Positions 20,510 through 54,477 of a stretch of 64,000 nucleotides of DNA are shown here, in pieces; position 1 is the first letter of the stretch, and every line of letters starts with the position of its first letter. Location of the stretch: contig WNDQ01000018.1 of the NCBI GenBank assembly GCA_009912175.1, positions 1-64,000 of the forward strand, read 5' to 3'. The notes under the pieces were generated by a model that had not been told where the DNA came from, did no database searches, and worked only from the letters and a program-made list of their open reading frames with translations. The translations under genes were made by a program, and so were the position numbers. Source of the stretch: Paracidovorax wautersii (GTDB lineage: Bacteria > Pseudomonadota > Gammaproteobacteria > Burkholderiales > Burkholderiaceae_C).

Positions 20510-20550
20510 GGGAATCTCCTGGTTTCGCGCGTGAAGCCGCGTGCCAGCAG

Positions 20551-20622
20551 AGCTAGCAGAGCTAGCAGAGCCAGCAGAGCCAGCAGAGCCAGCAGAGCCA
20601 GCAGAGCCAGCAGAGCCAGCAG
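20551..20622. repeat. 9-bp tandem repeat (AGCCAGCAG / AGCTAGCAG), 8 units
   Basis: Direct reading: two AGCTAGCAG units followed by six AGCCAGCAG units, upstream of the minus-strand hypothetical gene. Confidence 0.95.
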
Positions 20623-20843
20623 AAAGCAGCAGTGCCAGCGGCTTCGGCTTCATTCAAGGGCTTGTGTCCATGGTGCGCCCATCGGGCGGCCAGGCCTGTC
20701 GGCCAGGGCCGGGTAGGCCGGGTAGGAGCACACCGGCACCCGCTGGGCAATAGAAATTGAGCATGGACATGTCTTTTTGTAGGTTGTGTGAAATACAAAG
20801 GAGACCTAGATTTGCGGTCCCTTTCTTTGTCGGCACCCGGCAG

Positions 20844-50316: not shown

Positions 50317-50736
50317 ATGAGCTACGACCCCGACAACATCTTCGCCCGCATCCTGCGCGGCGAGGCGCCCTGCGTGAAGGTCTACGAGGACGATGCAACG
50401 CTGGCCATCATGGACGCGATGCCGCAGGCCGACGGCCATGTGCTGGTGCTGCCCAAGGAGGCCGCGGTGACGCTGCTCGACGCCTCCGACGAGGCCGCGT
50501 GCCGCTGCATCGTGACCGTGCGCAAGGTGGCCGCGGCCGTGCAAAAGGCGACCGGGGCGGCGGGGCTGACCGTCGGCCAGTTCAACGGCGCGGCGGCGGG
50601 GCAGACCGTGCCGCATCTGCATTTCCACATCGTCCCACGCGAGCCGGGCGTGGCGCTGCGCAAGCACGCAGGGCAAATGGCCGACCCGGCCGTGCTGCAG
50701 GCCATGGCTGAGCGCATCAAGGCGCATTGGGCATGA
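50317..50736 (+). CDS. HIT-family protein
   Basis: NIFARILRGEAPCVKVYEDDATLAIMDAMPQADGHVLVLPKEAA...GQTVPHLHFHIVPRE. Confidence 0.93.
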   Translation: MSYDPDNIFARILRGEAPCVKVYEDDATLAIMDAMPQADGHVLVLPKEAAVTLLDASDEAACRCIVTVRKVAAAVQKATGAAGLTVGQFNGAAAGQTVPHLHFHIVPREPGVALRKHAGQMADPAVLQAMAERIKAHWA

Positions 50737-50792: not shown

Positions 50793-50886
50793 CTGGGAAA
50801 CGGGGACCGGATGCGGGAAGTCAAGGAGGAGGACTGGACTTTGTCCAGTCCGGGGGACATGGACGCAGCCGGTCCCCGTTTCCCAG
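50793..50886. repeat. structured palindromic repeat element, copy A
   Basis: Perfect 18-bp outer inverted repeat CTGGGAAACGGGGACCGG...CCGGTCCCCGTTTCCCAG around a core with inner hairpin GGACTGGAC-TTT-GTCCAGTCC; the core matches copy B in inverse orientation. Confidence 0.93.
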
Positions 50887-50964
50887 TCCGATGGCGAGGC
50901 GTGCCCGACTCGGGCGGGGCCGGGCTGCGTCAGAAAAGAAGAGACTGTGTCTGTCCTTTGGACC

Positions 50965-52266
50965 TCAGGTGTGTACCGGCCTCCCGCCGCTGTGCATGGC
51001 CACGCCGTGGCGGCGGCGCTCGTAGCGGTCGAGCGCCAGCCCTTCGGTGCTGATCTCGGGCTTGGCGCCGGTGATGAGGTCGCTGATCAGCTTGCCCGAA
51101 CCGCAGGCCATGGTCCAGCCCAGCGTGCCGTGGCCGGTGTTCAGGAACAGATTGCCGTAGCGCGTCGCGCCAATGATGGGCGTGCTGTCGGGCGTCATCG
51201 GGCGCAGGCCGGTCCAGAAGGTGGCTGCCGGGATGTCGCCGCCCGGGAACAGGTCGCGCACCACCATCTCCAGCGTGGCACGGCGACGCGGGTCCAGGCG
51301 CAGGTCGAAGCCGCCCAGCTCGGCCATGCCGCCCACGCGGATACGCCGGTCGAACCGTGTCACCGCGATCTTGTAGGTCTCGTCCAGCACGGTCGACTGC
51401 GGCGCCAGGCTCTCGTCGGTCAGCGGCACGGTGATCGAATAACCCTTGACCGGGTAGACCGGCACGTCCAGCCCCAGCGGCGCGATGAAGTCGCGTGTGT
51501 AGCTGCCGAAGGCCAGCACGTAGCGATCGGCCGTCAGCAACTGGCCGCCGACTTTCACGCCCTGGATGGCGCCGCCCTCGTGCACGAGGGCCTCCACGGA
51601 CTGGTTGAAACGGAAGTCCACGCCCAGGTCGGCCGCCAGCTTGGCGAGCGCGTTGGTGAACAGATGGCAGTCGCCCGTTTCGTCATTGGGCAGGCGCAGG
51701 CCACCGGTCAGGCGGTCCTTGGCGTGCGCCAGCGCGGGCTCGACGCTGGCGAGCTGCTCGGGCGTGAGCAGCTCGTGCGGCACGCCGCATTCCTTGAGCA
51801 CGGCGATGTCGCGCTGCACGGCATCGAGCTGCGCGGCCGAACGGAAGAGCTGCAGCGTGCCGCCCGAGCGGTGTTCGTAGTGGATGCCGGTGTCGGCGCG
51901 CAGCTGGCGCAGGCAGTCGCGGCTGTACTCGGCCACGCGCGTCATGCGTTCCTTGTTGAGGGCGTAGCTGCTGGCATTGCAGTTGCGCAGCATCTGCGCC
52001 ATCCAGCGCAACTGCCACAGGCTGCCGTCCAGGCGCACGGCCAGCGGCGCGTGCTGCTGGAACATCCACTTGAATGCCTTGAGCGGAATGCCGGGCGCGG
52101 CCCACGGCGTGGAGTAGCCGGGCGAGATCTGGCCGGCGTTGGCAAAGCTGGTTTCCTCGGCCGGGCCCGCCTGGCGGTCGAGCACGGTGACTTGGGCGCC
52201 GGCACGCGCGAGGTAGTAGGCGGTGGTGGTGCCGATGACGCCGCTGCCCAGGACGATGACTTTCAT
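50965..52266 (-). CDS. dadA: D-amino acid dehydrogenase, small subunit
   Basis: [78 protein letters not shown]. Confidence 0.95.
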
Positions 52267-52327
52267 GGCGAATTCCGGGTGATCCGAAGAGTGGAGAGTG
52301 GATTCCGGAACTGTAGGACTTGTGATC

Positions 52328-52342
52328 CAGTGGATTCCACTG
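52328..52342. promoter_or_regulatory. candidate Lrp-type operator in the dadA-lrp intergenic region
   Basis: Perfect 7-1-7 palindrome CAGTGGA-T-TCCACTG; half-motif AGTGGATTCC repeated at 52297-52306. Confidence 0.5.
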
Positions 52343-52391
52343 TAGTTTTGGTGCAGTCCCCTTGTTGTTGCTGATTTAATGGGGCGCAGCC

Positions 52392-52874
52392 ATGGGAATC
52401 AGTGAAATGCACGAACTCGACCGCATCGACCGCAAAATCCTCGACATCCTGCAGCGCGATGGCCGAATGTCCATGACCGATCTGGCCGAGCAGGTCGGCC
52501 TGTCGGCCTCGCCGTGCACCGAGCGGGTACGGCGGCTGGAGCGCAATGGCGTCATCACGGGTTACCACGCGCGCGTGGCGCCGCAGGCGCTGGGCCGCAC
52601 GCTGCTGGTGTTTGTGGAGATCAAGCTGGCGTCCAAGTCGGGCGATGTGTTCGACAAGGTGCGCAAGGAGTTGCTGCACGTGCCCGAGGTGCTCGAATGC
52701 CACTTGGTGTCGGGCAGTTTCGACTACCTGGTCAAGGCGCGGCTGAGCGGCATGGACGAGTACCGCCACCTGCTGGGCGACATCCTCAAGAAACTGCCGG
52801 TGGCCGCTGAGAGCCACAGCTATGTGGTGATGGAGGAGGTCAAGGAGACGCTGGTGTTGCCGGTGGACCGGTAG
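52392..52874 (+). CDS. Lrp/AsnC-family transcriptional regulator
   Basis: [56 protein letters not shown]; divergent from dadA. Confidence 0.94.
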
Positions 52875-52927
52875 GCCTGACCTGGCTTGCTCCAGGACAT
52901 TGACCGCTCTGCCTCTGGCGAGCACGG

Positions 52928-53029
52928 CCCGGCACGGTCCGGGTTCCCGTTGCGTCCATGTCCCCCGGACTGGACGTTGTCCAGTCCTCCGCCTTGACTT
53001 CCCGCAACGGAAACCCGGACCGCACCGGG
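52928..53029. repeat. structured palindromic repeat element, copy B (inverse orientation to copy A)
   Basis: 27-bp outer inverted repeat (24/27 paired) CCCGGCACGGTCCGGGTTCCCGTTGCG...CGCAACGGAAACCCGGACCGCACCGGG with inner hairpin GGACTGGAC-GTT-GTCCAGTCC. Confidence 0.93.
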
Positions 53030-53121: not shown

Positions 53122-54477
53122 TCAGGCGACTTCGGCCAGCGCGTCACCCAGCGCGTTGACGAGGCGGTCGATCTTGGCCTTTTCGCTGATGAAGGGCGGG
53201 GCGAGTTGGATGGTGTCGGCGCCGTAGCGCACGTAGAAGCCCTTTTTCCAGCAGGCCATGGCGATCTCGAACGGGCGGCGTGCCGGCTCGCCCGGGTAGG
53301 CGGCGATGCTGATGCCCGCGGCCAGGCCGTGGTTGCGGATGTCGGCCACGTGTTTGCTGCCCTTGAGGCTGTGCACGGCCTGCTCGAAGTAGGGCGCAAG
53401 CGCCTTGACGCGGCCGATGCCGTCTTCCTGCGCCAGCAGGTCGAGCGCGGCAATGCCGGCCGCGCAGGCCACGGGGTGGGCCGAGTAGGTGTAGCCGTGC
53501 GGGAACTCGACCAGGTAGTCGGGACCACCCGCCGCCATGAAGGTGTTGTAGATCTCGGGGGTGACCACCACGCCGCCCAGCGGCTGCGTGCCGTTGGTGA
53601 CCTGTTTGGCGAAGTTCAGGATGTCGGGCACGACGCCGAAGGCCTCGGCGCCGGTGGCCGCGCCGCAGCGGCCAAAGCCGGTGATGACCTCGTCAAAAAT
53701 CAGCAGGATGTTGTTCTGCGTGCAGATCTCGCGCAGGCGCTGCAGGTAGCCCACGGGCGGGACGACCACGCCGGCCGAGCCCGAGAAGGGCTCGACGATG
53801 ACGGCGGCGATGTTGGAGGCGTCGTGCAGCGTGATCAGGTCGAGCAGGCGGTTGGCCAGCGCTTCGCCGCCTTCGGTGGCCTGGCCACGCACGAAGGAGC
53901 CGGCTGGCGGCTGGGTGTGGGGCAGGTGGTCGGCCGCGATGCCTTCACCGAAGGTCTTGCGGTTGCCGCCGATGCCGCCCACCGAGATGCCACCGAAGTT
54001 GACGCCGTGGTAGCCCTTTTCGCGGCCGATCAGGCGTGTCTTGCTGGCCTGGCCCTTGGTGCGCCAGTAGGCGCGGGCGATCTTGAGCGAGGTGTCGGCC
54101 GCTTCCGAGCCGGAGCCGGCGAAGAACACGTGGTCCAGGCCGTCGGGCGTGAGGGCCTTGATCTTGTTGGCCAGCTCGAACGAGGCCGGGTGGCCGAACT
54201 GGAAGGCGGGCGCGTAGTCCAGCTTGGCGATCTGTTTGCTGACCGCCTCGACGATCTCGGTGCGGCCATGGCCCAGGCCCGTGCACCACAGGCCCGAGAG
54301 GCCGTCGTAGATCTTGCGGCCGTCGGCGTCGGTGAAGTAGGCGCCCTTGGCCTCGACGATCAGGCGCGGATCGGTCTTGAACTGGCGGTTGCCGGTGAAG
54401 GGCATCCAGTGCGCGGACAGCCAGTCGGCGTCGGTGCGGATGGCGGGGGCGGAAGCGGGGGAGGTGACGGTGCTCAT
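53122..54477 (-). CDS. class III (omega) aminotransferase, beta-alanine--pyruvate transaminase-like
   Basis: HWMPFTGNRQFKTDPRLIVEAKGAYFTDADGRKIYDGLSGLWCTGLGHGR...LIFDEVITGFGRCGAATGAEAFGVVPDILNFAKQVTNG. Confidence 0.92.
   Translation of the reverse strand: MSTVTSPASAPAIRTDADWLSAHWMPFTGNRQFKTDPRLIVEAKGAYFTDADGRKIYDGLSGLWCTGLGHGRTEIVEAVSKQIAKLDYAPAFQFGHPASFELANKIKALTPDGLDHVFFAGSGSEAADTSLKIARAYWRTKGQASKTRLIGREKGYHGVNFGGISVGGIGGNRKTFGEGIAADHLPHTQPPAGSFVRGQATEGGEALANRLLDLITLHDASNIAAVIVEPFSGSAGVVVPPVGYLQRLREICTQNNILLIFDEVITGFGRCGAATGAEAFGVVPDILNFAKQVTNGTQPLGGVVVTPEIYNTFMAAGGPDYLVEFPHGYTYSAHPVACAAGIAALDLLAQEDGIGRVKALAPYFEQAVHSLKGSKHVADIRNHGLAAGISIAAYPGEPARRPFEIAMACWKKGFYVRYGADTIQLAPPFISEKAKIDRLVNALGDALAEVA

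Follow-up and report, generated by a model that had tools for sequence, protein, structure and literature searches.

Two structured elements flanking dadA and lrp

Within the 64,000-nt stretch of DNA that was analysed (the window), the genes dadA (50965-52266, minus strand) and lrp (52392-52874, plus strand) are flanked by two inverted copies of a structured intergenic element. Both occupy gaps between convergent genes: copy A (50793-50886, core on the plus strand) has a HIT-family gene (50317-50736, plus strand) on one side and dadA on the other, and copy B (52928-53029, core on the minus strand) is bordered by lrp and an aminotransferase gene (53122-54477, minus strand). A first-pass annotation had placed both copies at these positions in convergent gaps and had pointed out their shared core, all of which is borne out by the sequence and by gene calls. 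The match between A and B is the top-scoring inverted match within the window. Both copies fold more stably than their dinucleotide shuffles (z-scores of -7.7 for A and -8.0 for B, with 0 of 200 shuffles as good), and both are recovered by a covariance model of the element (E values of 5e-17 and 4.6e-16, respectively). They are single copies in '+-' order, 2 kb apart, and do not form a doublet.

In copy A, the outer arms (50793-50810 and 50869-50886, plus strand) form a perfect 18-bp duplex, as had been described initially. Inside them lie the two strands of a conserved core, the 5' strand GCGGGAAGTCAAGGAGGA (50813-50830), with a variable nucleotide N at 50827, and the 3' strand GGGGGACATGGACGCA (50852-50867), with a covarying N at 50854; an apical hairpin, GGACTGGAC-TTT-GTCCAGTCC (50831-50851), occupies a position that covaries family-wide. 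On its core strand, copy B has its 5' arm at 53003-53029, the GGCGGA of the core, with the C variant at the variable N, at 52988-52993, the apical hairpin GGACTGGAC-AAC-GTCCAGTCC at 52967-52987, and its 3' arm at 52928-52954. As observed earlier, a single base (A/C, window position 50827) and the 3-nt loop are the only differences between the cores. The arms of B had been scored as pairing at 24 of 27 positions, but the three mismatches exist only as A·C on the plus strand; on the core strand they are G·U, which leaves the arm fully paired in the predicted fold.

Our sample of relatives includes one further genome from this genus, in which the covariance model detected no copy of the element; its syntenic dadA-lrp region has shorter gaps that lack it. 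Because the element is absent both at this locus and elsewhere in that genome, it is dispensable there. The gaps of the two genomes have diverged too far for a junction to be placed or a target-site duplication to be defined, and no terminal repeats or target duplication were seen at copies A and B.

A dispersed family with a strand-specific fold

Using a covariance model built from 38 diverse copies, we identified 29 copies in the genome that contains the window (A and B included), and further copies in this genome were also recovered by DNA search; the proposal of a dispersed, REP/BIME-like family is thus upheld. Within the sample of relatives, the element occurs in 9 of 41 genomes, this one counted, with up to 32 copies in the relatives. 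Within the same family, 139 of the 301 sampled genomes, or nearly half, contain it, spread over 78 of 141 genera; at most 15 candidates per genome were scored there, and copy counts per genome are lower bounds. In a phylum sample of 399 genomes, it is confined to this family and a second one in the class. Scanning GTDB genomes for the core pattern yielded at least 119 stretches, mostly from Comamonadaceae, Rubrivivax, Ideonella, Methylibium and Luteimonas; a few alphaproteobacterial and archaeal rows (e.g. L059 and L077) look like chance matches. The distribution is patchy, with species-specific subfamilies and burst-like amplification, and the copies often lie near contig ends. The core is therefore present well beyond the window, and the prospect raised at the outset, that it might be found nowhere else and that its stems might lack covariation at orthologous loci, is clearly contradicted by these counts and by the covariation described below.

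Phage records contained no match to the element. When searched with Rfam 15, the window has no family above its gathering score at the elements; the sub-threshold matches in the window comprise only animal or viral miRNA models and one mycobacterial sRNA, those at the elements being of the miRNA type and meaningless, and six further loci gave no match at the elements. We found no description of the element in the openly accessible part of the literature, which does not establish that none exists. It apparently represents a large family, so far undescribed, whose folded elements occupy intergenic sites in Comamonadaceae-type bacteria and Luteimonas and which, if indeed undescribed, would be one of the larger unnamed structured intergenic families in a well-studied bacterial group.

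Comparison of the copies shows that the element is dispersed, about 100 nt long and structured in a strand-specific manner. Its outer arms covary and are about 26 bp long (interquartile range 24-27 bp), and they enclose a conserved, asymmetric and noncanonical internal loop whose two strands carry GGNGGA and GGNGGAC, respectively (AAGGNGGA ... GGNGGACA), in which each of the GGs and the A that follows is nearly invariant. The apical hairpin also covaries across the family. In a covariation test for which the structure was fixed before scoring, 96% of cells are paired and double-sided changes occur in 21 of 25 pairs; the covariation score is 0.777, as compared to 0.176 for shuffled and at most 0.121 for slid controls. 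Together with compensatory changes at an orthologous site (see below), this covariation substantiates the earlier suggestion that structure is what is maintained outside the core. The two N positions of the core are themselves coupled (A·G in 205 cases, C·G in 12, G·A in 8, A·A in 4 and U·A in 1, and never G·G). A second covarying position, A·U (AAGT/ACATG) or G·C (AGGT/ACACG), separates type 1 from type 2 elements, respectively. A G-rich fold of two tetrads, with the apical duplex as its cap, would suit this core pattern. A Shine-Dalgarno-like reading of AAGGAGG is disfavoured, as the base at its centre is variable and changes together with its counterpart on the other strand. Four copies (L029:272, L104:358, L108:4455 and L112:821) have different arms and carry an identical insertion of ~18 nt, TGGACTTGGGGTTTTGCC, in the core loop; together with the core AAGTC, the insertion forms a GACTTGG/CCAAGTC hairpin. 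Either these copies make up a subfamily, or the core is the target of a very small inserting sequence.

The wobble pairs in the arms identify the strand that folds. On the core strand, G·T outnumbers A·C by 390 to 39 (about 10:1), and a less biased count, in which elements were picked by their core only and the register was set by Watson-Crick pairs only, gives 258 to 27. A double-stranded DNA cruciform should show no such bias, since a G·T on either strand corresponds to an A·C on its complement; a protein-binding cruciform, one of the roles considered initially, is thus disfavoured by the asymmetry, which indicates that one strand folds. In tandem gaps the bias is equal for sense (99:9) and antisense (103:7) copies, and therefore it is the core strand that folds, regardless of the direction of the host operon. 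G·T makes up about 9% of arm positions, where it is used like a normal pair, and this frequency suggests that the folding strand most likely acts as RNA rather than as single-stranded DNA.

Placement between genes, doublets and mobility

Gaps were classified with a simple, purpose-written gene finder that had been checked on the window. Those with an element comprise 35 convergent, 51 tandem and 3 divergent gaps, as compared to 19, 156 and 85, respectively, among gaps of at least 60 bp without an element at the same loci (Fisher tests: convergent versus divergent p = 4e-16 and tandem versus divergent p = 3e-6, for loci that are not independent). Of the 29 copies found in the genome of the window, not one is in a divergent gap, and all are intergenic save one that was called inside an ORF. 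The gap counts and these copies agree with the 3'-end and convergent placement that had been noted for A and B. A 5'-UTR or riboswitch reading of doublets between divergent genes was rejected, as divergent gaps are avoided. In a Hydrogenophaga metagenome-assembled genome (L027:1438-1631), two matches to the xanthine (NMT1) riboswitch occur on opposite strands of a single gap.

Several intercistronic sites recur, including pccB|pccA in ten loci and cbbM|cbbQ in five; the element also occupies the cbbL|cbbS site in Ideonella oryzae, sites between transporter genes, and a site within a meta-cleavage (catechol) operon on a Burkholderia anthina plasmid. Clustering of the ORFs near elements returned only orthologous contexts (pcc, cbb and Luteimonas loci) and no common transposase, and a shared neighbour gene was accordingly rejected as the driver. 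At least one orthologous intercistronic site is kept across several Comamonadaceae genera. In the orthologous pccB|pccA gap, compensatory changes are found in 14 of 24 and 13 of 24 arm columns (27 of 48), and the arms contain 42 G·U against 4 A·C. Because these arms compensate while the core stays constant, there is selection on the fold at this one place, and not copying alone. The upstream, antisense-oriented type 2 hairpin of the pcc gap has 18 G·U against 1 A·C on its own strand.

The element usually occurs as an inverted doublet, at gene ends or within operons, and 65 of 69 close pairs are in '-+' order, i.e. a hairpin facing left, a linker and a hairpin facing right. The linker between the arms has a median length of 43 nt, and its lengths peak sharply at 40-44 nt. 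Among the 62 doublets whose types were measured, 32 combine type 1 with type 2 and 30 contain type 1 twice, and none contains type 2 twice. A doublet looks identical from either strand.

Doublets have moved in some genomes. Luteimonas terricola BZ92r (G317) contains at least 35 near-identical doublets, whole or partial, that sit in units of ~400 bp with 16-bp terminal inverted repeats, GGTTC(A/T)TCTCCC(A/G)ACT; the units adjoin A/T tracts on both sides, often terminator tracts. The terminal repeat has 56 matches genome-wide, as compared to 0 for the reversed pattern, and many of these form facing pairs ~400 bp apart. One such MITE lies at C12:319374-319774 of this genome. In a Methylibium-type genome (G266; L244-L251), the doublet is carried in a unit with unrelated ends, GATAC...GCATC, many copies of which lie at contig ends. 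The ends of the two carriers are unrelated, and therefore at least two MITE types carry the module. The idea that the element is of the MITE type thus applies to these carriers and not to the window copies, which show no terminal repeats and no definable target duplication. In the genome of the window, most single copies resemble one another only as far as the arms, and another subset has entire doublets in common.

Candidate functions and relation to known repeats

We consider it about an even call that the element is an RNA 3'-end and intercistronic module, strand-symmetric, REP/BIME-like and of mobile ancestry, for which we infer both the functional form and the role. A transcript that crosses a doublet from either direction would carry one correctly stranded hairpin. 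By virtue of its rigid arms and of a purine-rich core that may bind a protein or fold into a compact G-rich structure, this hairpin would serve as a 3'-end module that blocks 3'-5' decay and sets the ratio of upstream to downstream products in operons (e.g. pccB|pccA and cbbM|cbbQ); in convergent gaps it would also restrict antisense transcription or read-through. At the dadA-lrp pair, the transcripts of the HIT-family and aminotransferase genes would each finish with a sense copy. The observation worst explained by a simple mRNA-stabilizer model is the compensation of the antisense-oriented hairpin in the pcc operon: since the wobble bias is found on the strand of this hairpin as well, selection cannot be acting on folding in the operon mRNA alone, and read-through from the other side, or a role as single-stranded DNA, must also be considered. 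The '-+' order is likewise unexplained by stabilization alone.

The main rival, which we regard as rather improbable, is a selfish single-stranded DNA element, whose core strand would fold as DNA and be recognized by a putative nuclease or transposase, with the doublet as the copying unit and any effect on RNA as a by-product. Such an origin fits the patchy distribution, the species-specific subfamilies and bursts, the resemblance of the inverted doublet to REPINs, and a strand bias that is independent of neighbouring transcription. However, the presence of a Y1/HUH gene (PF01797) is unrelated to that of the element (odds ratio 1.2, p = 0.51; 106/33/118/44), and no such gene was found in the copy-rich genomes G317, G022, G113, G266 and G013. 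The arms are moreover compensated in place at orthologous sites, the movement in L. terricola and Methylibium proceeded via ordinary MITEs whose ends are not the hairpins, and the free use of G·T fits RNA better than DNA.

An intrinsic bidirectional terminator, as envisaged initially, was rejected, since TTTT occurs within 10 nt in 0 of 219 elements. A factor-dependent terminator or insulator, at which the sense hairpin would stop or pause RNA polymerase in either direction without a U-tract, is unlikely; it would account for the enrichment in convergent and avoidance of divergent gaps, for the strand symmetry of the doublet and for selection on both hairpins even in operons, but has to contend with the missing U-tract and with frequent placement in operons, where full termination would silence the downstream genes. 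It overlaps the 3'-end module and is separable from it by transcript data alone. That the elements are non-functional IS or MITE remains, palindromic by accident, is very unlikely: two genomes do have MITE carriers, but compensated arms and an invariant noncanonical core at cross-genus sites are not expected of decay. A REP/REPIN family proper, spread by a RAYT, is hardly credible despite the palindromic, extragenic, 3'-biased inverted doublets, as a RAYT-type gene is missing from 33 of the 139 element-bearing genomes, none of 24 Y1 loci in element-bearing genomes is flanked by inverted copies, and the size, arm length and head sequence differ from those of published REPs (PMC2817692). The single Y1-type (PF01797) gene of the genome of the window (L143; G000:C59:34521-34808) is also unflanked by the element, and the RAYT association that had been suggested for inspection was accordingly rejected.

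By membership tests, then, the element is not a REP, though the two have much in common. Like the REP, BIME and REPIN sequences of enterobacteria, Pseudomonas and Stenotrophomonas (PMC2817692, PMC3116915), it is an extragenic palindrome with 3' or intercistronic placement, inverted doublets, species-specific subfamilies and complementary stem changes, and it combines two subtypes per doublet, here in about half of the doublets. Published REPs are 20-40 nt long with a GT(A/G)G-type head (PMC2817692), whereas the element is about 100 nt long, with arms of about 26 bp around a conserved asymmetric internal loop, has no GT(A/G)G head in its consensus and no RAYT association, is kept at orthologous sites across genera, and in two genomes travels as doublets in MITEs with terminal inverted repeats. 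The 3'-end module would thus work as REPs and BIMEs do, while its construction and spread differ. With MITEs (Correia-type and others; PMC10969869), it shares the ~400-bp L. terricola unit and the Methylibium unit with its different terminal repeat. Unlike MITEs, the window copies and most Comamonadaceae copies show no terminal repeats, the internal fold rather than the ends is conserved, and the same core is carried by two unrelated end types. A MITE of Polaromonas sp. JS666, cited in PMC10969869, is likewise a short repeat described from the same bacterial family. Intrinsic bidirectional terminators are similar in being GC-rich hairpins between convergent genes; in contrast, the element has no U-tract, has a conserved internal loop and also occurs within operons.

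A broader reading, possible and advanced here tentatively, is that the elements constitute a new class of strand-symmetric, bidirectional RNA modules, in which the GGNGGA/GGNGGAC loop would control 3' ends and operon stoichiometry (e.g. of propionyl-CoA carboxylase and RuBisCO) across Burkholderiales, and which would have been repeatedly domesticated from, or into, mobile elements. The doublet would show the same architecture to transcripts from both sides, and the loop might either adopt a G-rich fold of two tetrads beneath a duplex cap or bind a dedicated protein. The element provides a testable case for separating selection of fold over sequence, strand specificity and mobility, bears on the old question of how repeats like REPs can originate and be kept in the absence of a RAYT, and flags sites of intercistronic control in pcc, cbb and catabolic operons.

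Two other repeats occur in the window. At 1532-1744, four repeats of 29-30 nt (GTGTTCCCCACGTACGTGGGGATGAACCG) are spaced by 61 nt, the last one degenerate, a pattern that resembles the end of a type I-E CRISPR array. At 20534-20632, an in-frame, nine-base tandem repeat, (GCCAGCAGA)n, extends over about 10 units.
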